This document shows, piece by piece, positions 4,633 through 25,031 of a stretch of DNA of 32,662 nucleotides. The notes beneath the pieces were generated by a model. That model was not told where the DNA came from. It ran no database searches and saw only the letters and a program-made list of their open reading frames with translations. The DNA comes from Holdemanella biformis DSM 3989 (GTDB lineage: Bacteria > Bacillota_I > Bacilli_A > Erysipelotrichales > Erysipelotrichaceae). The first letter of the stretch is position 1. Each line of letters begins with the position of its first letter. The DNA lies in assembly GCF_000156655.1 (NCBI RefSeq), contig NZ_DS996841.1:547215-579876 (forward strand). Direction: 5' to 3'. Both the position numbers and the translations under genes were made by a program.

Positions 4633-4642
4633 AATTGAACTT

Positions 4643-4804: not shown

Positions 4805-4823
4805 ATATTCATTATATTATTTC

Positions 4824-4842: not shown

Positions 4843-4886
4843 AAAGCTTATGTTCATGGTATGATATACGAAAGGAGTTTTTTATT

Positions 4887-6999: not shown

Positions 7000-8258
7000 A
7001 AGTAAAAGTAACACCAAGTAAAGTACATGGAAATGTAAAAATACCTGCATCCAAATCTATGGCGCATAGAGCTTTAATTTGTGCCTCATTAAGTGATGGT
7101 ACAAGTATTGTTTCTAATGTCACAAACTCAAAGGATATTGAAGCAACCGTTGGCTGTATGAAAGCTTTGGGAGCTAACATTAAACAAATCGATGAAACTA
7201 CATATGAAGTAACAGGTACTAATCTTTTCAAACAAGAAGGAAATATTACATGTAATGCGAATGAATCCGGTTCTACTTTACGTTTTTTGATTCCACTTGC
7301 TGCATGTACAAATGCCAAAGTTAAATTTTTAGGTCAAGGAAGATTGCTTCAAAGACCTATGGATGTATATGCGAATGAATTTAAGAAACAAAATATTGAA
7401 TTCAACCAATCCGATAAAGAAATTATTGTGAGTGGAAATCTACAAGCAAAAGACTATGTTGTACAAGGAGATATTTCCAGCCAATTTATTACAGGATTCA
7501 TGTTTGTCCTTCCATTATTAAATCAAGATAGTACACTAACAATTACTAAGCCTTATGAATCGAAGAGCTATGTAAATTTAACGATTCAAATGCTAGCTAA
7601 ATTTGGCATTGAAATCATTGAAACTAGTTCAAATTCCTATTTAATCAAAGGAAACCAACACTATAAAGCACAAGACGTTTCTGTTGAAGGAGACTTTTCT
7701 CAGCTAGCCTTTTTTGCGGTATTAGGCACTTTAAACAATGCTCTTTCATGCTCCAATATGGATATGTCTAGTATTCAAGGTGATAAGGCAATACTAGATT
7801 GTATTCCTAGTTTTACAAGTAACAAGGATACAATCACGTTCACAAAAAAACAACCTGCACCACAAACTATCGACTTATCTAATTGTCCAGATTTAGGACC
7901 AATCTTATGTGTCTTAGCCAGTTTCACAAATGGTGAAACAAATATTGTGAATGCAGCTCGTTTACGTATGAAAGAAAGTGATCGTATTCTTGCTATGGAA
8001 ACCGAACTTAAAAAATGGGGTGTGGACATTACATCCACATTTGATTCGATTCAAATTCATGGTAAAGAACACTACCAATCAAATAAGGCAATTGAAATCT
8101 TTGGACATAATGATCACCGTATCGTTATGGCAATGACCGTATTTGGATTATGTGCAGAATCTGAATGTATTATTGATGATGCCCAAGCCATCACAAAGAG
8201 TTATCCTACTTTCTTTGAAGACATTCAAAGCTTAGGTGGAAAGGTTGAGATTCTATGA
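6996..8258 (+). CDS. aroA: EPSP synthase (3-phosphoshikimate 1-carboxyvinyltransferase)
   Basis: Joins phosphoenolpyruvate to shikimate-3-phosphate. 420 residues with the N-terminal IPASKSMAHRAL (catalytic Lys and shikimate-binding Ser), NESGSTLRFL, the C-terminal RMKESDRI and HNDHRIVMAM motifs, all in the usual order. The ATG overlaps the aroC stop (ATGA) and its own stop overlaps the tyrA ATG in the same way, so the three genes are translationally coupled. aroD, aroE and aroK are not in the window, so the pathway is split over several loci. Confidence 0.97.
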   Translation: MKVKVTPSKVHGNVKIPASKSMAHRALICASLSDGTSIVSNVTNSKDIEATVGCMKALGANIKQIDETTYEVTGTNLFKQEGNITCNANESGSTLRFLIPLAACTNAKVKFLGQGRLLQRPMDVYANEFKKQNIEFNQSDKEIIVSGNLQAKDYVVQGDISSQFITGFMFVLPLLNQDSTLTITKPYESKSYVNLTIQMLAKFGIEIIETSSNSYLIKGNQHYKAQDVSVEGDFSQLAFFAVLGTLNNALSCSNMDMSSIQGDKAILDCIPSFTSNKDTITFTKKQPAPQTIDLSNCPDLGPILCVLASFTNGETNIVNAARLRMKESDRILAMETELKKWGVDITSTFDSIQIHGKEHYQSNKAIEIFGHNDHRIVMAMTVFGLCAESECIIDDAQAITKSYPTFFEDIQSLGGKVEIL

Positions 8259-10110: not shown

Positions 10111-10141
10111 ACTGTAGCGACTCACATATCGCTACAGTTTT
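10111..10141. terminator. bidirectional intrinsic terminator
   Basis: Perfect 10-bp stem ACTGTAGCGA / TCGCTACAGT with an 8-base loop. Plus side: TTTTATTATTT; minus side: TCTTTTTG. It therefore can end both yitT and the minus-strand EIIA remnant. Confidence 0.85.
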
Positions 10142-10142
10142 A

Positions 10143-10932
<790 letters not shown>

Positions 10933-11039
10933 CTTCTTCTCCCTAACCAAAATATGTATACTATACCTTTATCATATATGGCTTTTGAATCGAATGATAT
11001 ATACAATGAAAGAAAAATATTCAATTCAATTAAATATAC

Positions 11040-11070
11040 AAAAAAAGACCATGGAATAAATCCATGATCT
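11040..11070 (-). terminator. strong terminator, apparently the displaced original rplM-rpsI terminator
   Basis: On the minus strand, stem AGATCATGG / CCATGGTCT (one G-U pair) with a 7-base loop and T7. The nearest gene that could feed it is none within the element: it lies about 26 bases beyond the left copy of the rpsI 3' end (11097-11113), in the direction rpsI is transcribed. Before integration it would have followed rpsI directly. Confidence 0.8.
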
Positions 11071-11096
11071 TGAAATCTCTTGTACGTAAATATAAT

Positions 11097-11113
11097 TAAC
11101 GTTTAGAGAACTG
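11097..11113. repeat. attL: left copy of the integration-site repeat
   Basis: TAACGTTTAGAGAACTG. On the minus strand it reads CAG TTC TCT AAA CGT TAA, matching the last codons of rpsI with a TAA stop. Identical to attR over the first 14 bases and mismatched at only one of 17. Confidence 0.85.
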
Positions 11114-11171
11114 AATGTTTCTTTATTTAAAGCACATTCAGTTATTTTTGCGTCTTATACGCGTGCTTAAA
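11109..11171. other. left-end arm of the element: hairpin plus GCGTGCTTAAA repeat
   Basis: A long imperfect hairpin joins AACTGAATGT (11109-11118) to ACATTCAGTT (11134-11143), with CTTTA / TAAAG stacked inside; it overlaps the att core. Next comes CTTATACGCGTGCTTAAAG (11154-11172). GCGTGCTTAAA recurs at the right end (26371-26381), with two more GCGTGCT copies there. Shared short repeats at both ends are typical arm sites for a tyrosine recombinase; binding is inferred. Confidence 0.5.
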
Positions 11172-11516
11172 GTGCATTTTAGATATTTATTATATGATCC
11201 GATCTTTCTGGTATATTTGAATATTTAAAGTTGCGTGGAACCACCAAATCCATAAAATAGATCCACCGAATTCATTTAGACAGAGCTACTATCATATCCA
11301 CGAACAAGACCACTTCAAATTTTAAAATAGCTCTCATTATTGTTTGACTTTTGAACAATCTTCTCGAAGTTATCTATCTTGAATATATTAGGGATAAATA
11401 ATAAATCAACCTTTAAACACTCATAAGTTTTCTGCATTACAATTCTTATAGCCCATATTTAATCGTTTATATCTAATTGCAGATTACCTGAAAAACATGT
11501 TTTGTAAACGAAGTTT
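11172..11516. other. gene-poor left part of the element
   Basis: About 345 bases of AT-rich sequence with no convincing gene. The best open frame is on the minus strand at 11315-11437 (40 residues, starting MQKTYECLKVDLLFIPN). It has no ribosome-binding site, and a frame this short is expected by chance in DNA this AT-rich. No terminator was found after the ABC exporter gene that ends at 11517. Confidence 0.5.
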
Positions 11517-13135
11517 CTATATTAAAAAAACTTTTTTTTCTTTTGATTCAAGATACTCTAAGTCATCATGAGAAATAATTATTATTATTTTGTTTTCAAT
11601 TTTATTAATGCATTGTTGAAAAAATCTCGAACTCTCTTTATCTAAAGCCGAAGTTGGTTCATCAAACACTAATACATTTGCTTTAGATAATAAAGCCCTA
11701 ATAATACCAATTTTTTGCTTTTCGCCTCCTGACAGATTTGAATTTAATGGATGCAAAACAGTATTAATCCCATCATCCATATTATCAATTATTTCAACCA
11801 TATTAAAACCTTTTAACAAATATTCTAAGTATCTACCATTGTAATTATCATTTGGAATTAGATTCCGTTCAATAGTATCTTCAATAATTAATGGTTCTTG
11901 CAAGCAAACAGCCACATTCTTAAAAATAAAGTAATTCATATCAATTTTTTTCATATCAATACTATTCACTAATATACGTCCACCATAATCATTACCAAAC
12001 ACGCCTAAAATAACTTGTATAAAAGTACTCTTCCCAGTACCGTTTTTTCCTAAAATTCTATAAATATTTCCTTTTTCAAAAGAGCCATTGTAATGTATTA
12101 ATTCCTCTTGATCTATATATCTAAAAGAAAGATGATCAAAATACACAGTGTTAACATCTTCAATCAGTTCTTTTCCATTCATTTTTGATATATTATGGTA
12201 AATACTTAATCTATCACAACTAACTCTACATTTTTGCACATTATTCCAAAAATTTAATATTATCTGTGTGTTTGATATAACGTTAGCATAATAATTAGTA
12301 ATTGTTACTACCATGCCAACAGTAATGTGATGTTTAACCACTAAAATCGCACCGATTATATAAATTAGAATTTGAGTCAAAATAGACACTAAATTTATAA
12401 AAATGTTATTGCAAGATTCTATAAATTGTTGTTTCTTATTTACAGAGAAAAAATGCATAAATACCTTATTTTCAAAGGATTTAATATTTTCAAACAACGA
12501 ACACATTTTAATAGATTTTAAATAATACACAAGTTGATATAATGCACCAAAATAAGCTCCAGTGCTTTCTAACACTTGTTTATTAGAATTATATATTTTA
12601 TCCTTAAAATAATAATATATAATCAAATATAAAATCGTAGAAATTAGTAGAACAAATACAAATAGAATTGACTGTGTCAATACAATAAAAATCATAAATA
12701 GAATTGAAAATATCGCAATGATTATTTGTTGGACCGAGCTTAAACAAAACATAATAATATCATTACAATCATTATTTATCGTTTGATTCAAAACAGAAGG
12801 ATCTTTGTTTAATAAATTTTTATATGATATTGAATATAAATTGTGTATTTCATCTACATTTGCTTCATTTCCACATTTTACTTGAAGTAAAAAATATAGG
12901 TAAGATCCAATAATAGAGAAAGCCAATGAAAAAAGCATTATTAGGATTAAAACAATGATATTTTTTATGAAAATATTTAAATCAGTTTTAACCAAACTAT
13001 CAATTACAGCTCCTTCCATAATTGGAATAAACAGCTCACTTAAACTAATTAGTATTTGTGATGCAAAATAGACAAAATATAAAGTCTTATATTTAAAAAA
13101 TATATTTAAAAACCATACAACAATATTTTTTTCAT
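11517..13135 (-). CDS. ABC exporter (fused membrane and ATPase domains), start out of frame across an A7 tract
   Basis: Likely exporter of the modified peptide. The open frame from the ATG at 13019 encodes 500 residues: a half-exporter membrane domain (several hydrophobic segments in the first 280) and an ATPase domain with Walker A GKNGTGKST, signature LSGGEKQKIG, Walker B VLVFDEPTSALD and the H-loop ISHD. No C39 peptidase domain is seen, so any leader removal needs another protease. The same frame continues 38 codons upstream with a good first membrane segment, but lacks a start there. The natural ATG (13133-13135, overlapping the preceding stop as ATGA) is followed by A7; one more A would join it in frame as MKKNIVVWFLNIF. 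Either slippage or phase variation restores it, or the gene is damaged. It is the last gene of the cluster. Confidence 0.85.
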
Positions 13136-14457
13136 AAGCTCATCTTATCTTTCTGTCGAACACTCACAAAATTCACAAATAGTAAAACAAAAATAAAAAC
13201 GACACATATACAAATCGAATTCAACCAGTTTTGCATACCACAACCCGATAAAACACTCAAACTCGGACTTATACTAAATGGATTTATAAAAGATATCAAA
13301 TCCATTCTTTGACTGATGACATATAAAATAATACAAATTATTCCAGATAAATAATTAAATCCTGTTTTTGTGAAGGTATATACACAAAACATAGCCATTT
13401 GAATATAAAGTTCTAATTTCAGAAGAATTAATGGTAAAGATATTATTAAAGCTTTCCATAATGGAATAAAAGATAAATCAGGTATAAATCCTAGTTCTGT
13501 CGCATAATATTCAGACATATTATTTATGACATAATTGTCTGTATGATACATCCTTTTAAAAGAGAAGAAATGTTTAGTGTCAGCCAACAGCCATATATCC
13601 CATCCTGCAAAGCCATTACTAATTCCTAGCAAAAGAAAAGGAATACCTATTGATGCAATCATAAGAAGTAAAAAAGCTATAAATAATTTTACTTGTATGT
13701 GTACGAAAAAGTGCACATCATTTAATTGTTCGAGCTCAAAAACACCTGTCTTTTTTTCGTACATTAAAACAACAACACAATAAACCAAACATAAAGGCAT
13801 AAACAAATACGCAAATGAACTGTCTATTCTTAACTGGTGTGCTAAAAAATACCATGGACCTTTTCCTACATATTGTTCCGTATTTGTTTCTAATTGATGT
13901 AGCTGTTCTTGAACAGATAATTCAACGGTTCTATATTCCTCTTTTTTATTTTGAGATATTTGGCTTCCAATCATAAAAATCCGACTCTGCTCAAATGAAA
14001 TGTCTGCTTCTTCAAAGCCTAATTTATGAACTTGGCGCATAAATTTTTGATCACCATTCTTTTTTAAAGCATCCAAATGATACAGCTTATCCCATAATGT
14101 AATTTCATTATATCTTTTTATTAATCCTTTATTTTTAAAAACTTCTTTTCCATATTTGTTAAATAAATTCCATCCAGCTTTGGCATTATCAATAGCCCAG
14201 CTTAAATAATCCTGATAACTATTCCAATACACCTTTTCCTCTGCACTCATATGTTTTACGGCCATGTATTGTAGATTGATATCTGATAAAGCTCTTTGGT
14301 ATTGTTGAATCTGCGTTTCAAAAATATTCATATTCTGTTCCACATCATACTCATGTCCCATATAATTTGGTACTTGCACCATGTTCAATACTAATAAAAT
14401 GAAAAAGATAACAGCACTCACTTTGTTCTTTAATACACTTTTTATTTCTAAACTCAT
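13132..14457 (-). CDS. ABC-2 type permease subunit B of the cluster
   Basis: A 441-residue membrane protein: one N-terminal helix (AVIFFILLVLNMVQV), an extracytoplasmic helical region of about 180 residues rich in Gln, Lys and Glu, then five or six hydrophobic segments from about residue 215 to the end. This layout (TM, large outer loop, TM bundle) is common in ABC-2 permeases of bacteriocin immunity systems. It is six bases downstream of the other permease and its TGA overlaps the exporter's ATG. With the ATPase at 15474-16352 and the permease at 14462-15469 it should form an ABC complex protecting the producer. The immunity role is inference from context. Confidence 0.8.
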   Translation of the reverse strand: MSLEIKSVLKNKVSAVIFFILLVLNMVQVPNYMGHEYDVEQNMNIFETQIQQYQRALSDINLQYMAVKHMSAEEKVYWNSYQDYLSWAIDNAKAGWNLFNKYGKEVFKNKGLIKRYNEITLWDKLYHLDALKKNGDQKFMRQVHKLGFEEADISFEQSRIFMIGSQISQNKKEEYRTVELSVQEQLHQLETNTEQYVGKGPWYFLAHQLRIDSSFAYLFMPLCLVYCVVVLMYEKKTGVFELEQLNDVHFFVHIQVKLFIAFLLLMIASIGIPFLLLGISNGFAGWDIWLLADTKHFFSFKRMYHTDNYVINNMSEYYATELGFIPDLSFIPLWKALIISLPLILLKLELYIQMAMFCVYTFTKTGFNYLSGIICIILYVISQRMDLISFINPFSISPSLSVLSGCGMQNWLNSICICVVFIFVLLFVNFVSVRQKDKMSL

Positions 14458-14461
14458 AAAC

Positions 14462-15469
14462 TTAACCTAAATCCAATCTTTCTAAATAGAGACATGAAAT
14501 GAACTGTATGCATATTGCGCCTATAAAAAACAAAGATGTATAGGCCCATAAAGTTTCAATATGCAAATATGTATACATAAAAACAAATAATAATCCCGTC
14601 AACATTAGACTCATTCCTTTATTTTTCGTCAACAAAGATAAACATTGTATGCATGAAGCACTAAACAAAACCCATCCAAGTACAGAAAGAATATGATGAG
14701 ACAAGTAAATAATCACTGGTGTTGTTCCAATCAATAACTCTATGCCACTTCCACAATTTATATATCCAATCAAATACAATACAACGAAAAATAGTATACT
14801 AAAAAAAACAGTGATAAGAATATGTAACAACGCGCGAAGTATATATACATATTTACGACTTTTCCCTATTGTAAATAAATATCGAAATGTATTGTTTTCT
14901 AAATCTTTAGACCATATATCCACATTCCACACTAGAATCAAAATCATGAATAAATAAAAGAAAAGATTGTTTCCTTTTAAAAATTGCACCATCAAATAAC
15001 AACCCGTCGGTTTATTTTGATATACAAAGTCATAATATTCATTTTCAATATATGTTTTTTCCATTTGAATTCGTTTTTTTAAGTCTTGTTTATTATTTTG
15101 AAGAATCGATTTAAAATTGGATAAATCCATACCTGAATCAATATATTTTAAAATGTTTTGATCCCTATCATACATATCTTTTGCGATTGTTTTTGCATCC
15201 TCGTCATTTTTCCAATCACTTAATAACTTTTGACAATAAATACTATCCTCTCTAAAAAAGGCATTCAGTTTTTCTTTTGGAAGAATATTGATTCTTTGGT
15301 TTTCTTCATTTAACGTTTCATAATAATACATGATTTGATTGGATGCATATTGTTCATATTCAGTATTGTATTTAAAAAAATACACGGATAAAACGCCAAT
15401 TAAAACAAGGATCAATGCTAGAATATTTCTTTTTGAAAAAAGAAATTTAAATTCATTTTTTAATAACAT
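14462..15469 (-). CDS. ABC-2 type permease subunit A of the cluster
   Basis: A 335-residue membrane protein with the same plan as its downstream neighbour: N-terminal helix (ILALILVLIGVLSVYFF), an outer loop of about 120 residues, then about five hydrophobic segments. Low similarity between the two permeases suggests an old heterodimer like the E and G subunits of lantibiotic self-protection transporters. Spacing is four bases after the ATPase gene and four before the next permease, so all three are one operon. Confidence 0.8.
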   Translation of the reverse strand: MLLKNEFKFLFSKRNILALILVLIGVLSVYFFKYNTEYEQYASNQIMYYYETLNEENQRINILPKEKLNAFFREDSIYCQKLLSDWKNDEDAKTIAKDMYDRDQNILKYIDSGMDLSNFKSILQNNKQDLKKRIQMEKTYIENEYYDFVYQNKPTGCYLMVQFLKGNNLFFYLFMILILVWNVDIWSKDLENNTFRYLFTIGKSRKYVYILRALLHILITVFFSILFFVVLYLIGYINCGSGIELLIGTTPVIIYLSHHILSVLGWVLFSASCIQCLSLLTKNKGMSLMLTGLLFVFMYTYLHIETLWAYTSLFFIGAICIQFISCLYLERLDLG

Positions 15470-15473
15470 ACGC

Positions 15474-16352
15474 TTAACCCTTATATAGTTCCTTATAATA
15501 TGTTTCCAAATCCTGATGCACTTCAGCTAAGGAATAAACCAAAACATCATTTTGAATCAGTATTTGCAAGGACTTAGAAAACTCTTCTTTGGAATCACAT
15601 TGCATATAAAGAATATGCTCTTTAATAAAAGAATTTTTTAAAAGGAGCAATACATTTTTCGGATTAGAAACTTCTAATCGATAAATCGAATGATTTTGAC
15701 GAAGTTCGTCCATATTCTTCTCTTTGATCAACTTTCCACTTTTAATAAATAAAGCTCGATCAGCTAATTTATCGAGTTCACTTAACTGATGAGAAGATAA
15801 TAAAATACTTGTTCCTTCATTTCGTATAGTTAAAAGCTTATTTCTTAAATCAAATATAGCTTGTGGATCTAAACCATTCGTAGGCTCATCAATAATAAGT
15901 AATTTAGGTTTGGACATCATAGCCAAAGCCAATACTAATCTTTGTTTCATTCCCATCGAATAATGTTCTGTGGCTCGATATAAGCCATCCTTTAAATCAC
16001 TGAATTGCTCCATTTCCTCAATTCTTTTAGAATCTAAATGCTTCCAATTTGCCATGATTTTAAAATGTTCATGTCCAGATAACTCTGGATATAAAGATGG
16101 ATATTCAATACTTACACCTATATTTTTTAACGCATTGGATGAATCACTCTTTAAATCATATCCACAGATAGTAATTTTCCCTTCACTCATATGATATAGT
16201 CCTGTAATACATTTCATGATTGTACTTTTTCCAGCACCATTTGGCCCAATCAATCCTACAATTTCATTTTCAAATATTGAAAAACTAATATTATCTAAAA
16301 TCCTATGATTTTTAATCTGCTTTGAAACGCCTTCTACTTTGAGTATTTCCAT
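15474..16352 (-). CDS. ABC transporter ATPase (BcrA/LanF-like), probable immunity
   Basis: A 292-residue ATPase with Walker A GPNGAGKST, the variant signature YSMGMKQRL, Walker B LLIIDEPTNGLD and SSHQLSELDKLADR. The MG variant of the signature and the C-terminal extension are typical of BcrA/NatA-type subunits that pair with ABC-2 permeases, two of which follow at once. I place the start at the ATG at 16350-16352 (MEILKVEGVSK), preceded by a G7 run about nine bases upstream. An upstream in-frame ATG at 16370 would use an AAGGA only three bases away. It follows the precursor gene after the hairpin at 16388-16414, so its expression may be a fraction of the precursor's. Confidence 0.85.
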   Translation of the reverse strand: MEILKVEGVSKQIKNHRILDNISFSIFENEIVGLIGPNGAGKSTIMKCITGLYHMSEGKITICGYDLKSDSSNALKNIGVSIEYPSLYPELSGHEHFKIMANWKHLDSKRIEEMEQFSDLKDGLYRATEHYSMGMKQRLVLALAMMSKPKLLIIDEPTNGLDPQAIFDLRNKLLTIRNEGTSILLSSHQLSELDKLADRALFIKSGKLIKEKNMDELRQNHSIYRLEVSNPKNVLLLLKNSFIKEHILYMQCDSKEEFSKSLQILIQNDVLVYSLAEVHQDLETYYKELYKG

Positions 16353-16387
16353 ATATAAATTCCCCCCCATATTCCTTCCCTATATAA

Positions 16388-16414
16388 TAAGGGATAACAA
16401 AATGTTATCCCTTA
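16388..16414 (-). terminator. strong hairpin after the precursor gene, probable partial terminator or mRNA-stabilising stem
   Basis: A perfect 12-bp stem, TAAGGGATAACA / TGTTATCCCTTA with a three-base loop. The sequence after it on the minus strand is ATTATATA rather than a T run, so termination would be weak. Placed between a bacteriocin-type precursor (stop at 16463) and the transport genes (start 16352), it would fit the common pattern of high precursor and lower downstream transcript. Confidence 0.65.
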
Positions 16415-16462
16415 AATACTTATAGCTTAAATCCCAATAATTCGGTTTAGTTTTCACTTTAT

Positions 16463-16621
16463 TTATCCCATAGATACTTTATTTCCACTTGGAGTTACAC
16501 AAATCATATATCCTAGACAAGAAGCATTTTTTGTGCAATTAGTTACAGTTCCTGAATTTCTTGTACACGAACAATTTCCAATAGGTGAAATTGAGTTATG
16601 TGGTTTAATCAAATATTCCAT
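16463..16621 (-). CDS. cysteine-rich RiPP precursor peptide (52 residues)
   Basis: A small gene with AAAGGAGG (16630-16637) eight bases before its ATG at 16619-16621 and a TAA at 16463-16465. It starts MEYLIKPHNSISPIG (leader-like, residues 1-15) and continues with a core rich in Cys, Thr, Ser, Asn and Gly. Cysteines are at 17, 19, 29, 35 and 41, in the order C-x-C-x9-C-x5-C-x5-C. It lies between a radical SAM/SPASM maturase and transporter genes, the classic place of a precursor. It has no GG-type cleavage site. The MxYxIKP start recalls, from memory, the Clo7bot/CcpM group of Cys-rich peptides. C-x-C plus radical SAM suggests thioether crosslinks (sactipeptide or ranthipeptide), which the sequence alone cannot decide. 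Confidence 0.85.
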   Translation of the reverse strand: MEYLIKPHNSISPIGNCSCTRNSGTVTNCTKNASCLGYMICVTPSGNKVSMG

Positions 16622-16696
16622 GTATAAGCCCTCCTTTCATCTTTTCACATGCATGTTCAATTTTAAGCTACAATATATTATTGGGTTAGTACAGAC

Positions 16697-17995
16697 CTAT
16701 ATGTTATTCATTAAGATATAGGATTTTTCAATATTTTTTTGTATATTCTTTCTAATGTAATCACAATCAGGATTATACCCATCTCTTAAGATTCTATGCA
16801 AACAACCTCCGCCCATACAAATCGGTAGAACCGAACAATTCTTACACTTTTTGTTTTCTAGTGGATTATATAACATATAATCATAATAAATATGATTCAT
16901 ACTACAATATTTAAAATCAGAAATATTACCAATACAATATTCTAAATCTCCCATTTCTTCCCAACATTTATATAGTGATCCATCTGCATCTATTACGAGA
17001 CCAGTTAATGTATCACAAACACAATGAGTAGCCATTGCCTCTGGATAATACTGTTTATAATCATTGGATTTTTCACTTTTAAGACTTGATTCTATTTCCT
17101 TAAACTCTTTAGAAGTATACGTATATGTATTGTAAACATCACTTTTATCATAAACAGCAGCAATATAAAAATTAATATACCTATTATAAGGTGAATCAGT
17201 CATAAGTCTTTTTAATTCATTTACACCATCTATGTTATTTTTATCCACATTCATTCTAACTGAAATAAATGGAAAATTGCAATTTGAAGAAATATCCCCA
17301 AAGTCTTTTATATTATTTAATATTCGGTCAAAAGTTGGCTTTTTCCCTATTAAATATCTACGATTGTCATGATAACTTTTTGGTCCATCAAGTGTAATTT
17401 GTATATTTTTAATTTTACAGTCAATCAATTTTACCATTACTTCCTTTGTTAAAAGGTATCCATTTGTAATTATGCTAGCAAAATACCTAACATTATTTAA
17501 TTTACATAATTCTATTAATCGTTTGCTAAGTGTACATATAGTTTCCATTTCTAGCAAAGGTTCTCCACCATACCAAGTAATGTTTACGGCCTCTAAATGT
17601 GACATTTCTTTTTCAATGAATTTATAAATATCATTTACTGTACTATCTGTCATTTTTCCAGGGCGTAATACATCTTTTTCAAAACAGTATGGGCATCTAA
17701 AGTTACAATTTGACGTTGGAGCTATCGTTAAATTCAAAATATTGTTTGAAAATCTACTAGCTAAAACATTATTCTTAACAATATCTAGTTCATTAGTTTT
17801 ATCTTCTAATAAATATCCTCCATAAACAAGAGCTTCTTTTAACTCTTTGGTAATTGTGCTTTTTGTACCTAAATCACATTTTTTTAATTGTTCATACTCA
17901 TTTAAACTTAGCTTAGCCAATGCATTAGTTCTTGCATTGAACATGATTATATTGTCACCATTTTTAAAACAATAATTATAAAGTGACTGTTTCAT
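16697..17995 (-). CDS. radical SAM/SPASM peptide maturase
   Basis: 432 residues from the ATG at 17995 (AAAGGA eight bases upstream); the frame extends upstream to 18070 but that part covers the promoter. Residues 1-80 (YNYCFKNGDNIIMFNARTN and on) form an N-terminal part like the peptide-binding region of SPASM maturases. C97, C101 and C104 (CNFRCPYC) bind the 4Fe-4S cluster that cleaves SAM, and YGGEP (142-146) is the SAM-binding motif. The C-terminal SPASM region has about ten cysteines (325, 327, 344, 354, 364, 384, 387, 393, 398, 411), enough for two auxiliary clusters. Directly upstream of the Cys-rich precursor, so it most likely crosslinks it. The crosslink type is unknown. Confidence 0.93.
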   Translation of the reverse strand: MKQSLYNYCFKNGDNIIMFNARTNALAKLSLNEYEQLKKCDLGTKSTITKELKEALVYGGYLLEDKTNELDIVKNNVLASRFSNNILNLTIAPTSNCNFRCPYCFEKDVLRPGKMTDSTVNDIYKFIEKEMSHLEAVNITWYGGEPLLEMETICTLSKRLIELCKLNNVRYFASIITNGYLLTKEVMVKLIDCKIKNIQITLDGPKSYHDNRRYLIGKKPTFDRILNNIKDFGDISSNCNFPFISVRMNVDKNNIDGVNELKRLMTDSPYNRYINFYIAAVYDKSDVYNTYTYTSKEFKEIESSLKSEKSNDYKQYYPEAMATHCVCDTLTGLVIDADGSLYKCWEEMGDLEYCIGNISDFKYCSMNHIYYDYMLYNPLENKKCKNCSVLPICMGGGCLHRILRDGYNPDCDYIRKNIQKNIEKSYILMNNI

Positions 17996-18015
17996 TTCAA
18001 ATATCCTTTCTTCTA

Positions 18016-18064
18016 AAAGAGCTCTTTCTGATTTCAATATAAAGTAATTATAATAAAAAAACAA
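18016..18064 (-). promoter_or_regulatory. promoter and palindromic candidate operator of the maturase-precursor operon
   Basis: Minus strand: TTGTTT (18059-18064), 17 bases, TATATT (18036-18041). Just beyond the expected start of transcription is the perfect 12-bp palindrome AAAGAGCTCTTT (18016-18027), then the maturase ribosome site. The palindrome is a plausible site for the HTH-TPR regulator encoded immediately upstream. Confidence 0.5.
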
Positions 18065-18074
18065 TATCAATTTT

Positions 18075-19343
18075 TTAATTAAGTTTTAGCCCTATTTCTT
18101 CAATTATTTGGTTTGCATATGACATTTTGTAGAAATTTTCTTGCAATTCTTTCACCTTTTTTAATTTATTTTGTAATCCATGATCAAGATATAACTCATT
18201 CAATTGTTTTAAAACAAAAATTGCTCTATCATATTGTCCATTTTTTAATGCGATTTGATAACAGGTTTCAAAATTAGCAATGGCTTTCATAGGTTTATTA
18301 TCCATCATATACTTTAAAGCGCGGATAAAACTCTTATGATATTTTGAATCCTTTACATCTCTAAAAAAAGAAGCAATACACTCTTTTGATTTCGTATATT
18401 CATGGCCAAAATAGTATAGAAGACATTTATACATTCTTAAATCTAAGTCATCTGTAAATTGTTCATCGATTCTGTTTAGATAATCAAATCCGCTTTTTAT
18501 ATCTTTTTGAATTAGCGAAGTAAAAACTAAATTTGATAAAATGCAATACTTCATGATTTCGTTTTGTCTTTTAATGGATTCATTTAATAGCTTTAAAAAC
18601 AGCTTATTTGCTTCATCATAACGAGATGTATACATGTAAAGTACACCTTGATTCAACAACAAATAATATAATCGATCGAAAGACAATTGCTGAACTGCCA
18701 TTTTTAAACTCTTATGAATATACTGCTGTGCCAAATTAAAATACCCTAAATCCAAGTAAATACTGCAATAATGGTAATTTATCATTAAATGATTACCCTT
18801 ATTAGATAACGCCTTATCTAAGTATCCTAATGCTTCTTTTATTTCATTCGAATATATCTTCTCTAATGCCATTATATCGTAATAAATGGATAATTCCCTA
18901 ACCGAAAAGTTATTCTTTCCTAATTCAATAATTCCTTTGTATAAAGCTGTATCCACTTCTTTTTGGTTAATGATAGCATCCATATACAGAATCAGATAAT
19001 ATTCAAATCTGGCATAGGAACAAGCTATATTCTTTGTGTCTTTTACTATTTGAATAGTTTCATTCAACTCTTCTTTTTTTAAATCTGTATACAAATCATA
19101 AATATCATATACATGATTTACAATTAGATCTCTATCCAAATCAAAATTAAATGTTTGGCCACATATTTCTGAAAATAAAGTAATCTTCTCATTTGTTGGT
19201 TTATTCTTACCAGTTTCAAATTGTGAAATTGTTGCTTCACTCACATCCATATTCTGTGCAACTTTTTTTATAGGAATCTTTTGCTCTGTCCGAATGCTCT
19301 TTAAAACATTTCCTATTAGTATACGACTAAACTTTTCTTGCAC
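18075..19343 (-). CDS. HTH-TPR regulator of the RRNPP (peptide-sensing) type
   Basis: 422 residues: an XRE helix-turn-helix at about 10-65 (LKSIRTEQKIPIKKVAQNMD then VSEATISQFETGKNKP) followed by about 350 residues of helical repeats with TPR-like pairs such as ALGYLDKALSNKGN, YFNLAQQYIHKSLKMA and RYDEANKLFLKLL. This is the plan of Rgg, PlcR and NprR regulators, which bind re-imported signal peptides in the TPR groove; NprR has nearly the same length. It begins with a GTG whose G is shared with the stop of a small secreted-peptide gene (TAGTG), so the two are translationally coupled. Four bases after it the maturase region begins. Control of the RiPP genes by a peptide is inferred. Confidence 0.85.
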   Translation of the reverse strand: MQEKFSRILIGNVLKSIRTEQKIPIKKVAQNMDVSEATISQFETGKNKPTNEKITLFSEICGQTFNFDLDRDLIVNHVYDIYDLYTDLKKEELNETIQIVKDTKNIACSYARFEYYLILYMDAIINQKEVDTALYKGIIELGKNNFSVRELSIYYDIMALEKIYSNEIKEALGYLDKALSNKGNHLMINYHYCSIYLDLGYFNLAQQYIHKSLKMAVQQLSFDRLYYLLLNQGVLYMYTSRYDEANKLFLKLLNESIKRQNEIMKYCILSNLVFTSLIQKDIKSGFDYLNRIDEQFTDDLDLRMYKCLLYYFGHEYTKSKECIASFFRDVKDSKYHKSFIRALKYMMDNKPMKAIANFETCYQIALKNGQYDRAIFVLKQLNELYLDHGLQNKLKKVKELQENFYKMSYANQIIEEIGLKLN

Positions 19344-19531
19344 TATTGCTCACCTTTATTTCCGCAGCACAATGATGGTTCATACTCATTTGAATCTTCA
19401 TGTTGATTCTCATCGTTATTACGCGTATTCTCAACCGGATTATCGTCCTGTACACCCTCTGCATAGATTTCAATAACGGGTGAGCCAAATACGCATAATA
19501 ACAAAAATAAACTTGCTATTATTTTTTTCAT
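19343..19531 (-). CDS. secreted 62-residue peptide, candidate pro-pheromone for the adjacent regulator
   Basis: AGGAGG (19540-19545) lies eight bases before the ATG. Residues 1-24 (MKKIIASLFLLLCVFG through IEIYA) form a Sec signal peptide with a likely cut after IYA. The remaining 38 residues are acidic and Asn-rich and end in SLCCGNKGEQ. The size, export signal and one-base overlap with an RRNPP-type regulator resemble the precursors of Phr, PapR, NprX or SHP signals, whose active part is the C-terminal 5-10 residues. In those systems the peptide gene is usually downstream or divergent, while here it is upstream. It has no similarity to the 52-residue RiPP precursor. Signal function is inference. 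Confidence 0.6.
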   Translation of the reverse strand: MKKIIASLFLLLCVFGSPVIEIYAEGVQDDNPVENTRNNDENQHEDSNEYEPSLCCGNKGEQ

Positions 19532-19596
19532 TCCCTTTTCCTCCTATCCCTAATTTTAATTCATTTTATATTTCATTCAATACGCAATATTTAATT

Positions 19597-19622
19597 AAAA
19601 AAACATAGTCTATTTAAACTAT
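19597..19622 (-). terminator. probable terminator of the XRE regulator gene
   Basis: Minus strand: ATAGT / ACTAT stem extended by a G-U and an A-T pair, four-base loop, then G and T7 (19597-19603 on the plus strand as A7). The stem overlaps the gene's stop codon. Confidence 0.55.
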
Positions 19623-20275
19623 TTGGTAACCCTTTTGTTACCAATAACCTCACTACGATCAGGATCGAATAATACTACATCAATATAGAAATCTAAATGA
19701 TGATATTTTTCTTTTTCAAATAAATCATACATTTGATGCTGCTTTTCATCTTTATTGTCAAATAAAATATGTAATCCTCTAAATGAATCCATAATAGATA
19801 ATGTTAATGACACTGCATCTCCTAAATAACCAATAAAATTTTTATCTTCCAATACATCATTTATAGATATTCTCTCAAAAAAACGATTGCAACTCGCAAC
19901 GATCACTATATTCTTATTTTCCCTTTTCTTTATAATTTTCGCATCAAAAGTACGCATATAATTTTCTGTTAAATGTAATTCAAACGGACTAACGGTAATA
20001 TTCCATCCTAATAAATACATATATGCTAAATATCTGCATGCCAAATATCTATTTTTTATGTCTTCTTCATCAAATAAAATATGCATAATCACATCATTTT
20101 GACTGCTCTTTGTATATTCACATATATTCTCTAATAATTTATCACTAGGAAATTTTGTGGTTCCATTCTCAATTAATTTAAGTGCAGTCACACTAATATT
20201 CATTTTTTTCGCCATGCTAACTTGTGACTCTTCACGATCCAATCGAATGTTTTTCATATAAGTTGCAAATGCCAT
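19619..20275 (-). CDS. XRE-family regulator of the mobile element
   Basis: 218 residues with an N-terminal helix-turn-helix (about 5-60: YMKNIRLDREESQVSMAKKM then NISVTALKLIENGTTKFP) and a C-terminal domain of about 130 residues with alternating strands and helices (IKKRENKNIVIVASCNRFF, HHLDFYIDVVLFDPD) that I do not recognise. GAGGTGAT precedes the ATG. A TTGAAA-17-TATAAT promoter drives it, back to back with the promoter of the excisionase-replication-mobilisation genes. That arrangement is usual for the repressor that keeps an integrated element quiet, possibly with the C-terminal domain sensing an inducer; both are inference. Confidence 0.78.
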   Translation of the reverse strand: MAFATYMKNIRLDREESQVSMAKKMNISVTALKLIENGTTKFPSDKLLENICEYTKSSQNDVIMHILFDEEDIKNRYLACRYLAYMYLLGWNITVSPFELHLTENYMRTFDAKIIKKRENKNIVIVASCNRFFERISINDVLEDKNFIGYLGDAVSLTLSIMDSFRGLHILFDNKDEKQHQMYDLFEKEKYHHLDFYIDVVLFDPDRSEVIGNKRVTK

Positions 20276-20298
20276 ATTATCACCTCTGTCCCTATTAC

Positions 20299-20327
20299 AT
20301 TATATTAAAAATAGTAAGTATTTTCAA
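20299..20327 (-). promoter_or_regulatory. promoter of the element XRE regulator
   Basis: Minus strand TTGAAA (20322-20327), 17-base spacer, TATAAT (20299-20304). About 24 bases before the start codon. Confidence 0.75.
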
Positions 20328-20336
20328 TTTTTTGAG

Positions 20337-20365
20337 TTGCATTTACTTTCTATAGGTAGTATATT
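20337..20365 (+). promoter_or_regulatory. promoter of the element mobilisation operon
   Basis: TTGCAT (20337-20342), 17-base spacer, TATATT (20360-20365). Only ten bases separate its -35 box from that of the divergent XRE regulator promoter, so one operator could control both. Confidence 0.6.
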
Positions 20366-20370
20366 GTTGA

Positions 20371-20603
20371 TGTAGCAAGTATATGCATTTGCGTAGCAAT
20401 AATTTGCTTGCTACACATTGACAATCTTTAAAGGAGGAAAATTTATTATGTATGTTGAACATTAAAAAAGATCCATTAGATAAAGTTTGGTCACCGCATC
20501 TAATGAATCTACTCAAATGAAGAACTGTTTTTATAATGTCTTCACGTAAGCATTATAGCAAACATTTCTTTTTCCAACAAAATAAAAAAGGAGGAAAATT
20601 TGT
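20371..20603 (+). promoter_or_regulatory. structured leader of the mobilisation operon with a five-residue ORF
   Basis: From the expected transcription start the RNA has a 9-bp stem TGTAGCAAG / CTTGCTACA (20371-20379 and 20407-20415) with a competing inner pairing GTAGCAA / TTGCTAC. Then comes an AAAGGAGG site and a mini-frame MYVEH (20448-20465), an 8-bp stem CATTAGAT / ATCTAATG (20474-20481 and 20498-20505), and ATAATG / CATTAT near 20540. The site before the mini-frame (AAAGGAGGAAAATTT) is repeated almost exactly before the next gene at 20604. The lay-out suggests translational or transcriptional attenuation of the transfer genes, but no mechanism is proven by the sequence. Confidence 0.45.
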
Positions 20604-20831
20604 ATGGAAAACACAAAACTATATATTGAAACGCCTGTTTTTACAGGTAGAAATGTTCCTATTAATGAATTAGCAAAAGCCATTGGGAAAGATGCCCAAT
20701 ACATTCGAATCGGTCTTCAACAAGGTGTTTTAAATTTTGGCTATGCTATGAAAAAAGACAATTCAAGCGAATACAACTACTATTGTCCAGATAAGAAAGT
20801 ATGGGAAGAAACAGGGTATTTCAATGGATAA
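20604..20831 (+). CDS. small excisionase-like DNA-binding protein
   Basis: 75 residues with a basic-helix pattern of a winged-helix or Xis-type protein: INELAKAIGKDAQYIRIGLQ is the helix-turn-helix part, followed by GVLNFGYAMK and YYCPDKKVWEETGYF. Proteins of this type head the mobilisation cassettes of related Firmicute elements, from memory. AAGGAGG precedes the ATG and the stop overlaps the next gene by eight bases. Directionality factor for the recombinase, or replication accessory factor, are both possible. Confidence 0.65.
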   Translation: MENTKLYIETPVFTGRNVPINELAKAIGKDAQYIRIGLQQGVLNFGYAMKKDNSSEYNYYCPDKKVWEETGYFNG

Positions 20832-21852
20832 TAATATTGAACTTATCACCGGAAATGAGATCAGACATAAAACATATTTTGAAAACAACTATATTGTAGA
20901 TTCTCTTATCAAAGGAAATAAGGTTAGTATTTTAACTGGTGGAAGTAAAACTGGTAAATCCACATTAGCATTACAACTCGCAAATTCAGTTTCTAAAGGC
21001 ATTCCATTTCTTAATAACAATACGATCCAATGTGATGTTCTCTATATTTGTTTAGATAACGATGAAGATTTGATTGCAGAAAGATTGAAACTGATGAATC
21101 TTGAAATGGATGATTCTGTAGTTTTTTGTTTCAATAAAAACATAGTTTTAGAAGATACTTCTTCAAATCAAGATGATATATTATTACTCGAAGTTGTTAC
21201 GGAAACATTAATTTCTCATCCATTTCTTAGACTAGTTATTATTGATCTATTCGATAATATTCGCAATCTAACTATTAAAACAGAAGCAAATAATGTTAAA
21301 GATACAGAAGATATGGAATATTTAAAAGGAATTGCTGATGGTTTAAAAATTCATATTTTACTACTTAACCATGATACGAAAAACGGAACTCAAAATGGTT
21401 ATTGTTCATCCAAAGGAGGTGTAAAACTTGTGGGATCATGCAATGGCACTTATCTACATTTAATTCGAAGTGGTATTGGACAAACAAGTGCTACGCTTGA
21501 AGTTGGTGGAAGGAATATTAAAGAAGAAATCCTACAATTACATTTAGATACATCAACCCTTACGTATTCATTAAGCGAAGAAAATATTAATGATGATATG
21601 CCATATGAAATAGGTATAATTCGAAACTATATCATTAAAAACAATGGATATTCAGGCACTATCTCCAATCTTTTACAACTCACTAAATTAACAATTGCAG
21701 CAAATAGAGCATCGCGATTATTAAATACACACAAGGACTTACTAGCTTCAGAAGGAATTACTTTTTCAATTGATCCTAGCCGTTCGAATGGAAGAATCTA
21801 TACTTTTCAAGTTGAACAAAAGGACGATAAGGACGATACTTTATGCATATAG
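20824..21852 (+). CDS. RepA-like AAA/RecA-fold ATPase of the element
   Basis: 342 residues with a Walker A ILTGGSKTGKSTLAL (36-50), a Walker B LVIIDLFDN at about 138-146, and HILLLNHDTKNGT, where a polar residue follows a hydrophobic strand as in hexameric RecA/DnaB-like helicases such as plasmid RSF1010 RepA. The C-terminal 90 residues look like a winged helix. In mobilizable elements such proteins sit between the excisionase-like gene and the relaxase and are thought to help replicate the circular form. The last codons overlap a large inverted repeat (21821-21874). Confidence 0.75.
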   Translation: MDNNIELITGNEIRHKTYFENNYIVDSLIKGNKVSILTGGSKTGKSTLALQLANSVSKGIPFLNNNTIQCDVLYICLDNDEDLIAERLKLMNLEMDDSVVFCFNKNIVLEDTSSNQDDILLLEVVTETLISHPFLRLVIIDLFDNIRNLTIKTEANNVKDTEDMEYLKGIADGLKIHILLLNHDTKNGTQNGYCSSKGGVKLVGSCNGTYLHLIRSGIGQTSATLEVGGRNIKEEILQLHLDTSTLTYSLSEENINDDMPYEIGIIRNYIIKNNGYSGTISNLLQLTKLTIAANRASRLLNTHKDLLASEGITFSIDPSRSNGRIYTFQVEQKDDKDDTLCI

Positions 21853-21874
21853 TTATTTATCGTCCTACCGTCCT
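21821..21874. repeat. inverted repeat spanning the end of the RepA-like gene
   Basis: Two left AGGACGATA-type units (21821-21829, 21830-21838) face TATCGTCCT (21858-21866) and CGTCCT (21869-21874). They can form a 9-bp inner and 6-bp outer stem. The left half codes for KDDKDD at the protein's end. No T run follows, so it is more likely part of the transfer or replication origin than a terminator. Confidence 0.55.
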
Positions 21875-21893
21875 AGGATTTAATAAAACCTTT

Positions 21894-21951
21894 GTTACTT
21901 TGTCGAAAGTAACGCAAATGCACTTTTGTCATAAACAAAAGATGCCTTGCG
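21894..21951. other. candidate origin of transfer (oriT)
   Basis: Directly upstream of the relaxase gene are two hairpins. GTTACTTT / AAAGTAAC (21894-21901 and 21906-21913) has a four-base GTCG loop. CTTTTGT / ACAAAAG (21923-21929 and 21935-21941) has a five-base loop and is enclosed by CGCAA / TTGCG (21913-21917 and 21947-21951). MobV-family oriT sites are short hairpin clusters just upstream of the mob gene, which is what is seen. The nick site cannot be placed from the sequence. Confidence 0.65.
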
Positions 21952-21966
21952 CTCTACGAGGTTCAT

Positions 21967-23088
21967 ATGGAACAAAGCATTAGCTTTAAAATTGGCAAAG
22001 GAAGCATCGCTCACAATGCAAGAGATTTTACTGCAAGTAATGTCGACAGCAATCGAAGCCAATATAATATTGAATATGTTAATAAAGATCTAAAACAAAC
22101 TTATCATAAATTATTTGATGATGCCGTCACAAAATACAACGCTAGACAAACTCGTAGTGATCGTACCATTCCAAATTATTATGAAAAAATAAGAATGGGT
22201 AAACAAGAAAAATTATTCCATGAAGTTATTGTTCAAGTTGGAAATATGGACACAATGAATTGTCTTGGAAAAAATGGTGAACTAGGAAAAGTAATTCTCG
22301 ATGAGTATATGAAAGGTTTTCAAGAACGTAATCCGAATCTCTATGTATTCTCTGCTCATCTTCATATGGATGAACAGACACCTCATCTTCATATTGACTT
22401 TATTCCTTTTACTACAGGAAGTAAAAGAGGACTCGAAACTCGTGTTTCATTGAAACAAGCCTTAAAATCTCAAGGATTTAATGGAGGGAGTCGATCAGAA
22501 ACAGAGTGGAACCAATGGGTGAATGCTGAAAAAATGGAAGTTGCCAAAATCATGAATAAGTATGAAGTTAAATGGGTCAACCTTGATACACATAATAAAC
22601 CACTTGATGTTCTTAACTTTAAAAAAGAAAAAAGAAAAGAAGAAATTTCAAAATTGGATCATGAAATATTAACATTGAAAAAGCAATATAATTCGCTACA
22701 AAATATGACCCCCTATCTAAATGATGCGTTTAACGCTTTAAACAATGAAGAATTATGGTTGTTACCAGAACCAAATAAGCTCACACTTGCTTCAACATAT
22801 CATAAAAATATTGTTCAGCCAAAATTTTCCAAATTAAGAGCATTTATACAACCGTTGATCAACCAAGTATTTGATATTGTAAAAGAATTAATAAATCTGA
22901 AAACTCAACTGATCTTTTTAAAAAGCGAAAATACTGAATTAAAAAATTCAATAGATGAATTATCTTATGAAAATCGAGAATTAAAAAGAGATATGAACAA
23001 GCTCAAAAAATTCTTTGGTAAAGATACAATTGAAAATGCTCTTACTTTTAAGATTGTCAAATCCAAAAGAAAGGAAATTCATAAATGA
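21967..23088 (+). CDS. MobV-family relaxase
   Basis: 373 residues. Nicks the element at oriT and leads the strand into the recipient. The N-terminal motif HNARDFTASNVD (16-27) contains the candidate nucleophile His16; HLHMDEQTPHLHIDF (131-145) is the metal-binding HxDExxPHxH motif of the MobV/Pre family. The C-terminal part is coiled-coil rich (KKEKRKEEISKLDHEI, LKSENTELKNSIDELSYENR), as in other MobV proteins. Its gene overlaps the integrase gene by four bases (ATGA), so mobilisation and integration are coupled. Confidence 0.93.
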   Translation: MEQSISFKIGKGSIAHNARDFTASNVDSNRSQYNIEYVNKDLKQTYHKLFDDAVTKYNARQTRSDRTIPNYYEKIRMGKQEKLFHEVIVQVGNMDTMNCLGKNGELGKVILDEYMKGFQERNPNLYVFSAHLHMDEQTPHLHIDFIPFTTGSKRGLETRVSLKQALKSQGFNGGSRSETEWNQWVNAEKMEVAKIMNKYEVKWVNLDTHNKPLDVLNFKKEKRKEEISKLDHEILTLKKQYNSLQNMTPYLNDAFNALNNEELWLLPEPNKLTLASTYHKNIVQPKFSKLRAFIQPLINQVFDIVKELINLKTQLIFLKSENTELKNSIDELSYENRELKRDMNKLKKFFGKDTIENALTFKIVKSKRKEIHK

Positions 23089-24233
23089 GAAAAAGAAATA
23101 AACATATGCGATTGCCTAGTGGTTATGGGTCAATTGTAAAAATGAGTAACGCAAACAGAAGACGAAGACCTTATATTGTTCGCATAACAACAGGTTATGA
23201 TACAGATAAACAAACAGGCAAGACTAAACAAGTGATTGGCATTATTGGTTATGCTAAAACTCGCGAAGAAGGACTTCAAATGCTAGCGAAATATCATGAG
23301 AAGCCATACGATTTAAATCAAGGAAATCCCTCTTTTCGAGAAGTCTTTGAAGATTGGTTTGATGAAAAGTTCAAAGACAATATGGAAGCCAAAAAAATAA
23401 ATAGTTACCGAGCCGCATATAATACGTGCACACGAATCTTCGAATACCCATTTAGAGATATTAGAACCAGTGATCTTCAAAATATTATTGATAATTGTGG
23501 TAAAAACTACCCTACTCTAAGAAATATTAAAATCTTATTTAACCAAATGTACGCATATGCGATCAAGAACAATCTTTGCAGCACAGACTACGCAAAATTT
23601 GTAGATATAGCCAAATACAAAGATAGAAATCCGAATAGCTATGATCGGCAACCATTTTCAAAAGAACAATTGAATGTATTGTGGTCACAAAAAGAAGATA
23701 TATACATCCAAATGATTTTAATTCTTTGTTATACAGGTGTACGAGTAAGTGAATTATTGGATTTAAAGAAGCAAAATGTTAATCTTGATGAACATTTTTT
23801 CACTATTACTAAATCAAAAACACAAAGTGGAATCCGTAAAGTTCCGATTGGTACTATGATTTATCCATTCTTTAAAGCCTGGTATGAATCGAGTCAATGT
23901 GATTATGTATTCCACACGCCCGATCAAAAACATTTTACGTATCGTAACTATTACGACAGCTACTGGAATCCATTTATGGTTCGATTCGAATATGATCAAA
24001 CACCACATTGTTGCAGACACACATGTGTATCTCTACTTGCAACTGCACAGGTATCACAAACATATCAAAAACTAATAGTTGGTCACAAAGGTGCTATGTC
24101 TATCACGGAAAGCGTGTATACTCATATTGAAATGTCAGAACTTATTAAAGCAATTGATTCTGTTTATTATCCAGAAGAAATAATTAAAGAAGTAAAAAAA
24201 TCAAAGAAAAGAAGTGAACACTGTGAGAGATAA
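23085..24233 (+). CDS. int: tyrosine recombinase (integrase)
   Basis: 382 residues. The N-terminal 60 residues are basic (RKRNKHMRLP, NRRRRPYIVR), resembling an arm-binding domain; a core-binding domain follows (about 85-185); the catalytic domain has Arg220 (CYTGVRVSEL), Lys in ITKSKTQSG (about 243-245), His308 and Arg311 (HCCRHT), His334 (VGHKG) and the nucleophile Tyr345 (ESVYTHI). The set is complete. It is the obvious enzyme for integration at the rpsI 3' end, although about 2.3 kb and two more transcription units separate it from attR. Translation probably starts at the ATG overlapping the relaxase stop. Confidence 0.95.
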   Translation: MRKRNKHMRLPSGYGSIVKMSNANRRRRPYIVRITTGYDTDKQTGKTKQVIGIIGYAKTREEGLQMLAKYHEKPYDLNQGNPSFREVFEDWFDEKFKDNMEAKKINSYRAAYNTCTRIFEYPFRDIRTSDLQNIIDNCGKNYPTLRNIKILFNQMYAYAIKNNLCSTDYAKFVDIAKYKDRNPNSYDRQPFSKEQLNVLWSQKEDIYIQMILILCYTGVRVSELLDLKKQNVNLDEHFFTITKSKTQSGIRKVPIGTMIYPFFKAWYESSQCDYVFHTPDQKHFTYRNYYDSYWNPFMVRFEYDQTPHCCRHTCVSLLATAQVSQTYQKLIVGHKGAMSITESVYTHIEMSELIKAIDSVYYPEEIIKEVKKSKKRSEHCER

Positions 24234-24295
24234 GAATTATATTTATAAGCAGAAGAATCCTTTAATAGTCCATGTCATGAAGGAAGTTCATATTC

Positions 24296-24323
24296 TTGGA
24301 TTATACGCATAATAGTGTATAAT
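24296..24323 (+). promoter_or_regulatory. promoter of the structured RNA
   Basis: TTGGAT (24296-24301), 16-base spacer and a consensus TATAAT (24318-24323), 60 bases after the integrase stop. The only thing downstream on this strand is the structured non-coding stretch. Confidence 0.65.
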
Positions 24324-24329
24324 GCAAAT

Positions 24330-24612
24330 AAAAGTAGAAATACCAAATCAGTATGGCTCCTACCGCCATAAGCGTAGGGCGTTAAAGTGTGGAAGGATAT
24401 GAGTCCTTCCTTTTATTTTTCCTACGGGAAAGAGGCCAGCAATGCCGGTGTTAATACACACCGAACCGTACTCTGCAATTTTCCTTTCCACTTGCTTGTT
24501 GAGTGCAGTTATCCAAAGCCTCTTTTAACACAGAATTTCATTCTGTGGCTACACGTTTTGCGAACGCTTTTTAACCAGAACCAGCTTACCGCTGGCTGTG
24601 GTCTTTTTCTTT
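24330..24612 (+). ncRNA. structured non-coding RNA, family not recognised
   Basis: GC content is clearly higher than in flanking DNA, and base-pairing is dense: CCTAC..GC / GCGTAGG (24359-24378); GGAAGGA / TCCTTCC (24391-24410) followed by T4AT5, able to terminate; TTTCC-TACG-GGAAA (24418-24431), a UNCG-type tetraloop; long-range GAGGC / GCCTC (24432-24436 and 24518-24522) enclosing CGGTGT / ACACCG (24446-24463) and CTGCA / TGCAG (24473-24508); CACAGAAT / ATTCTGTG (24529-24547); and a final CCAGC / GCTGG stem (24581-24595) with a T-rich tail. A promoter stands just upstream. The frame open across it (24387-24620) has no ribosome site and is probably spurious. The transcript may end either at 24415 or at about 24612. 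Limits and RNA nature are inference. Confidence 0.6.
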
Positions 24613-24628
24613 TAATTTAACTTGATTA

Positions 24629-24829
24629 TTAGTTTTCATATTCAAATAATTTGGCAATCAACACTTTGAGTTCACCCAAAGCAGCTGGAGTTCCAACAAT
24701 GACTCCCAAACATTCATTTCCAGTACGATAAACAACAACCTGTATAGGAGTGGCGTTCGATTGACAACGATGGTCAACTAATGACTTTGGTAACCAGTGA
24801 CACAAAAGAAATAAACGAATTATAGTCAT
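24629..24829 (-). CDS. short unrecognised ORF, possibly a gene remnant
   Basis: 66 residues. The second half (IQVVVYRTGNECLGVIVGTP then ELKVLIAKLFEYEN) looks like a real protein end, with strand-turn-helix character; the first half (IIRLFLLCHWLPKS) does not, and no ribosome-binding site precedes the ATG. It is convergent with the structured RNA. It could be the tail of a lost longer gene. I do not recognise a family. Confidence 0.3.
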   Translation of the reverse strand: MTIIRLFLLCHWLPKSLVDHRCQSNATPIQVVVYRTGNECLGVIVGTPAALGELKVLIAKLFEYEN

Positions 24830-24896
24830 TGGAAAACAAATTCGTTTGCTTCTTTAGAATCATTGACATAGTTATAATAGCTAAAAGCATACTATT

Positions 24897-24935
24897 CACT
24901 TTCAAAAATTTAAAAATTTTTATTTTTTGAAAGTG
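24897..24935. repeat. AT-rich palindrome, copy 1, upstream of the ATPase gene
   Basis: CACTTTCAAAAA (24897-24908) faces TTTTTTGAAAGTG (24923-24935) across an AT-rich centre. A near-identical palindrome lies at 24984-25020. It stands just upstream of the ATPase -35 box. Confidence 0.75.
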
Positions 24936-24983: not shown

Positions 24984-25020
24984 ACTTTCAAAAGTTTAAA
25001 AAAATTCATTTTTTGAAAGT
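24984..25020. repeat. AT-rich palindrome, copy 2, between promoter and ATPase start
   Basis: ACTTTCAAAA (24984-24993) faces TTTTTTGAAAGT (25009-25020). Both copies continue into GGCA or GAGGCA on the right side, so the match goes beyond the palindrome. This copy would lie in the 5' untranslated RNA, where it can fold as a hairpin 11 bases before the ATG. Confidence 0.75.
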
Positions 25021-25031
25021 GAGGCAACACT

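Follow-up and report, generated by a model that had tools for sequence, protein, structure and literature searches.

A gene cluster of Holdemanella biformis DSM 3989 very probably makes a RiPP modified by a radical SAM/SPASM maturase, a reading based on homologous leaders beside related maturases, a blind leader score, a supported maturase clade, fold matches to CteB and TigE and ABC genes shared with related loci. The cluster lies in the window, by which we mean the whole 32,662-nucleotide stretch of DNA that was analysed, and it is a new example within an unnamed sister branch of Clo7bot, not a new kind of system. Its two central genes are:

16463 to 16621, minus strand: 52-aa Cys-rich RiPP precursor, leader MEYLIKPHNSISPIG(N), core from about C17
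16697 to 17995, minus strand: radical SAM/SPASM maturase, 432 aa, with an N-terminal RRE-like domain (TIGR04334, 286 bits; PF04055)

The precursor ORF translates as MEYLIKPHNSISPIGNCSCTRNSGTVTNCTKNASCLGYMICVTPSGNKVSMG, with cysteines at positions 17, 19, 29, 35 and 41, a core free of Asp and Glu, and a strong ribosome site (GAAAGGAGGGCTTATAC) preceding its ATG, which confirms the five-cysteine ORF, its place and its ribosome site as given in the initial annotation. It is the sole ATG ORF in the window which combines a length of 40–80 aa, at least five cysteines and a strong ribosome site, and none of 60 Markov-shuffled windows yielded an ORF of this kind. Searching RiPP precursor models, as that annotation had advised, we found no NCBIfam precursor model matching the 52-aa peptide; TIGR04333 (cut-off 31 bits) gave no match up to an E-value of 10, while two of three Clo7bot control peptides scored above 31 bits and the third 27.6. 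Plasmids searched by tblastn returned no match to the precursor, and a sub-threshold match to the spider-toxin Pfam model PF08092 (E 0.09) was taken as chance. The lack of a close homologue of the entire peptide in the plasmid and NCBIfam searches would fit a chance ORF, with the maturase acting on another substrate. Nevertheless, this explanation is scarcely credible, being contradicted by leader homology and opposed by the blind leader score, the ribosome site, the position of the ORF and its rarity.

The leader start M-x-[YFW]-[ILV]-x-x-P is common to the window peptide and to small cysteine-rich ORFs near the nearest maturases, these partner ORFs lying within about 1.5 kb, mostly a few hundred bases, of the closest maturases. 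Leader-like starts at these loci read MEYIIEP (L028), MEYLVHP (L068), MKYLVNP (L070), MKFLVEP (L078), MHWIKKP (L073), MQFLQQP (L027), MNILIPP (L056) and MKVIIES (L069). The initial annotation had named the absence of a conserved small ORF beside related maturases as an observation that would count against it; what we found there were homologous leaders. Such leaders accompany homologous maturases from seven or more further lineages, which strongly supports the precursor–maturase pairing. On a leader profile built from positions 2–7 of 14 leaders, from which the window peptide was left out, that peptide scored 14.2 bits. Eighteen distinct ORFs scored as high or higher, all of them precursors, many of which had served for training; the best non-precursor ORF reached 10.1 bits among 4647 distinct ORFs, which were drawn from the loci examined, so that the score is a ranking rather than a genome-wide probability. 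Annotated Clo7bot peptides begin MKYIVKP or MKFIKKP, and their leader start M-x-[YF]-[ILV]-x-K-P is also that of the window peptide. A scan of 21 relatives with TIGR04333 gave sub-cut-off matches only, as it did in control genomes.

Outside the leader, the peptides have only abundant cysteines in common, with 3–12 in each core and with core length, cysteine number and spacing different in each relative; PISPSGC in the L078 precursor corresponds to SISPIGNC in the window peptide. The spacing C-x-C-x9-C-x5-C-x5-C, which had been flagged as unlike that of any characterised product, is real. Because core cysteine patterns differ in every relative, such an odd spacing is to be expected and on its own does not point to new chemistry.

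At locus L068, the 72-aa precursor (5937–6155) has 12 cysteines and CETLCAAN repeat units, and the adjoining S41 peptidase gene (4402–5844) could encode a leader protease. Nif11-like leader peptides occur near Clo7bot-related maturases at L034 (1–324) and L038 (6675–6884), hinting at leader swapping within the enzyme group. Five loci from Bacilli MAGs (L006, L007, L009, L012 and L013) carry, at about 7800–8030, a conserved peptide of 40–44 aa ending in LDACGCTGNGxC or close to it, just upstream of a more distant radical SAM/SPASM gene followed, as judged by eye, by PP2C-like and kinase-like genes; these genes would form a RiPP-like cluster of their own, in which the core is fixed.

The maturase contains the CNFRCPYC motif and ten C-terminal cysteines, as first described, and matches PF04055 (Radical_SAM). 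Five homologues all retain six of the ten cysteines (C350, C369, C409, C412, C418 and C423; 457-aa numbering). The TTG start listed at 18070 is probably unused; given the Shine–Dalgarno sequence AAAGGA and the alignment with the starts of homologues, translation is better assigned to the ATG at 17995, and the gap between maturase and precursor is 75 nt. The general marks of radical SAM/SPASM RiPP systems are all present, namely a CX3CX2C motif, SPASM cysteines, an RRE and an adjoining small precursor. Comparison with maturase models, also advised in the initial annotation, gave TIGR04334 (Clo7bot) as the best NCBIfam match, but every family scored well under its cut-off: 286 bits against 600 for TIGR04334, followed by TIGR04463 (259), CefB (199), FlmE/OhkG (187), geopeptide (158) and PapB (NF047865, 121 against 340). 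The pair does not belong to TIGR03974, for which the maturase scored 76 bits against a cut-off of 425 and the precursor has five cysteines.

In a tree of 25 rows, the window maturase falls in a clade (support 97/96) with those of L070, L078, L068, L027, L028, L069 and L056, outside which lie L055 (annotated Clo7bot), L071 (Clo7bot-type) and L076 (TIGR04463); the mutual relation of the window clade, Clo7bot and TIGR04463 is weakly supported. The nearest maturases are 36–40% identical and come from other genera. No homologue above about 40% identity was seen in samples of about 1,900 genomes, and because these were searched in samples closer maturases may exist; with homologues no closer than this, core conservation and acceptor residues cannot be deduced. 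Viral contigs held distant maturases only. Judged from sequence, the clade appears as sister to Clo7bot, with no curated NCBIfam model separating it. That the cluster is instead a genuine but divergent Clo7bot system is improbable and disfavoured: TIGR04334 is the best match and annotated Clo7bot peptides have the same leader start, but the maturase score is less than half the cut-off and its clade is separate and supported, TIGR04333 does not match the peptide while it does match Clo7bot controls, and there is a single precursor, not many.

We modelled the maturase with AlphaFold (pLDDT 72, pTM 0.64) from nine sequences, with parts of the C-terminal SPASM region at low confidence. Like RRE domains, the model has three strands and two helices at its N terminus. 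Among the top rows, CteB (5wgg; model residues 4–426, Z 24.0, rmsd 5.0) and TigE (8vpo; residues 1–426, Z 20.0, rmsd 4.2) were the only solved maturases to align over the full chain; TigE is not known to be a thioether synthase. The product of the window cluster is probably thioether-crosslinked, a bond type deduced from the cysteine-rich cores, and since the structural relatives comprise both a thioether synthase and TigE this chemistry is plausible rather than settled. An antimicrobial role, raised as a possibility in the initial annotation, found no support. A non-thioether bond (C–C, ether, epimerisation or cyclopropanation), with the cysteines serving as disulfides or metal ligands, is an unlikely alternative to which the full-chain match of TigE and the second-best rank of TIGR04463-type enzymes lend some weight, but of all features only cysteine persists through the divergent cores, and CteB also aligns, with the higher Z score.

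CteB forms a thioether, and its leader is bound as a β-strand on the RRE (PMC8326336); by analogy, the β-prone EYLI of the window leader suits strand binding of the same kind. PapB-type enzymes link Cys to Asp or Glu (PMC9413430), and such links do not apply here because the core has neither residue, so that acceptors would have to be Thr, Ser, Asn, Ala or other residues.

The minus strand carries, in this order, a 62-aa ORF, an HTH-TPR regulator, the maturase, the precursor, a hairpin, a BcrA-like ATPase, a pair of membrane proteins and lastly an ABC exporter:

19343 to 19531, minus strand: 62-aa signal-peptide ORF overlapping the regulator start, candidate pheromone
18075 to 19343, minus strand: HTH-TPR regulator, RRNPP-like (HTH_3 and TPR)
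16388 to 16414 (approximate), minus strand: strong hairpin with a 12-bp stem, between the precursor and the ABC genes
15474 to 16370, minus strand: ABC transporter ATPase of the lantibiotic-protection (BcrA-like) type (TIGR03740, 210 bits, below cut-off)
14462 to 15469, minus strand: ABC-2 type permease (PF12730, E 9e-5, under the gathering score)
13132 to 14457, minus strand: second membrane protein, probable ABC permease from its hydrophobic sequence and position, with no family match
11517 to 13019, minus strand: ABC exporter with membrane and ATPase parts (PF00664, PF00005), lacking a C39 peptidase

The hairpin (RNA fold −20.2 kcal/mol, z −2.94) is a possible terminator, processing or attenuation site. 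The BcrA-like ATPase, a candidate for export or self-immunity, shares 39% identity with its counterparts next to the L070 and L078 maturases; for the ABC exporter, identity to an ABC gene beside the L068 maturase is 31% over 506 aa. Given these similarities, the ABC genes probably belong with the system. No protease was identified in the cluster. The regulator matched no solved RRNPP receptor by sequence. At L027, a TPR regulator with one in-frame stop lies divergent to the maturase. The 62-aa ORF was considered as a second precursor and ruled out by its leader-profile score of 2.8. Rgg/SHP control is known for streptococcal RaS-RiPPs (PMC13361665), and by analogy with it the cluster may be controlled by a peptide-sensing HTH-TPR regulator.

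The whole cluster lies within an island present in one of two sister genomes, which includes:

10288 to 24882, no strand: 14.6-kb island with the whole cluster, absent from sister genome G001
23085 to 24233, plus strand: tyrosine integrase (PF00589, 1e-15)
21967 to 23088, plus strand: Mob/Pre relaxase (PF01076, 8e-17)
20824 to 21852, plus strand: RepA-like AAA_25 ATPase (PF13481, 5e-17)
11097 to 11110, minus strand: 14-nt exact copy of the rpsI 3′ end, candidate att site, the other copy lying in rpsI at 26503–26516

Alignment with G001 runs to 10287 at about 95% and resumes at 24883 at about 94%; in place of 10288–24882, G001 carries PTS, 6-phospho-glucosidase-like and RpiR-like genes. The 14-nt rpsI 3′ end has two matches against 0.03 expected, which suggests a putative rpsI-directed integrase, the rpsI 3′ end being a known target of streptococcal IMEs (PMC5357655). 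The 14-nt repeats and the edges of the island fall at different positions. Simple integration between rpsI and its neighbour is unsupported, as G001 has the same gene beside rpsI; with this shared gene separating rpsI from the island, the insertion has no simple history. Relaxase and integrase DNA matched nothing among plasmids. The RiPP cluster is carried as cargo by an island that is probably mobilizable. At the left edge of the island, a PTS IIA gene remnant (10138–10287) with an internal deletion of about 150 nt, intact in G001, lies beside a decayed glycosyltransferase gene (10267–10940). Two near-identical palindromic 38-nt repeats (24898–24935 and 24984–25021) upstream of an AAA_14/DUF4143 gene, possibly operator sites, are kept in G001.

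Taken together, the shared ABC genes, the HTH-TPR regulator with its secreted peptide and the integrase/relaxase island absent from G001 suggest a regulated, mobile RiPP cluster. We propose that the leader MEYLIKP would pair as a β-strand with the maturase's N-terminal RRE domain, and that the enzyme's 5′-deoxyadenosyl radical and SPASM clusters would install crosslinks starting from some of the core's five cysteines; these links would most likely be thioethers (ranthi- or sactionine). The leader would then be cut off by a protease and the product exported by the adjoining ABC transporters, one of which may also confer self-immunity, while the adjoining regulator would control expression by sensing the secreted peptide.

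A leader tag, M-x-[YFW]-[ILV]-x-x-P, and a maturase clade emerge from the window cluster together with its relatives, which makes further members easy to find. They also allow testing of how far a leader-reading enzyme tolerates very diverse cysteine-rich cores, and the substrate, a small peptide of 52 aa with five cysteines, lends itself well to in vitro work. A bolder and rather doubtful proposal is that the window maturase represents a subfamily not described before, with Clo7bot and TIGR04463 as sister groups. A single type of leader-reading enzyme would there act on very different cysteine cores through an uncharacterised bond, and in the window it would be spread by a quorum-regulated mobilizable element.

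Clo7bot itself is a known peptide family, chemically uncharacterised, and we found no papers on Clo7bot, TIGR04334 or TigE/TigB in the literature searched. With Clo7bot (TIGR04333, maturase TIGR04334/CtpM; for example the Paraclostridium bifermentans plasmid NZ_CP094934.1) the window shares the leader start M-[K/R/E]-[Y/F]-[I/L/V]-x-K-P, a Cys-rich core, a radical SAM/SPASM maturase about 33% identical and a nearby ABC transporter, but it has one precursor where Clo7bot has about nine, adjoining regulator and mobility genes, a pair under both model cut-offs and a maturase in a separate clade. The SCIFF/CteB ranthipeptides are alike in RRE–radical SAM–SPASM architecture, full-chain fold and several cysteines in a short peptide, and differ in maturase identity (about 18%), in gene context and in that the window precursor lacks a SCIFF model match. 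TIGR04463, CefA/CefB and TigE are related through the second-best family score and the whole-chain fold match of TigE; however, scores are below cut-offs, the TIGR04463 reference is on a separate branch of the tree, and the window has neither the Cys-every-fifth repeat nor a partner methyltransferase. The streptococcal Rgg/SHP-controlled RaS-RiPPs resemble the window only in how they work, with an HTH-TPR regulator and a small secreted peptide by a radical SAM RiPP operon, whereas precursor and maturase subfamily are unrelated and regulation in the window is inferred. The IMEs at the rpsI 3′ end (PMC5357655) likewise have a tyrosine integrase, a relaxase and a copy of the rpsI 3′ end, but in the window the cargo is a RiPP cluster, and rpsI is separated from the island by a gene that G001 also has. 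By these comparisons, the window cluster would work like known leader-guided radical SAM RiPP systems.
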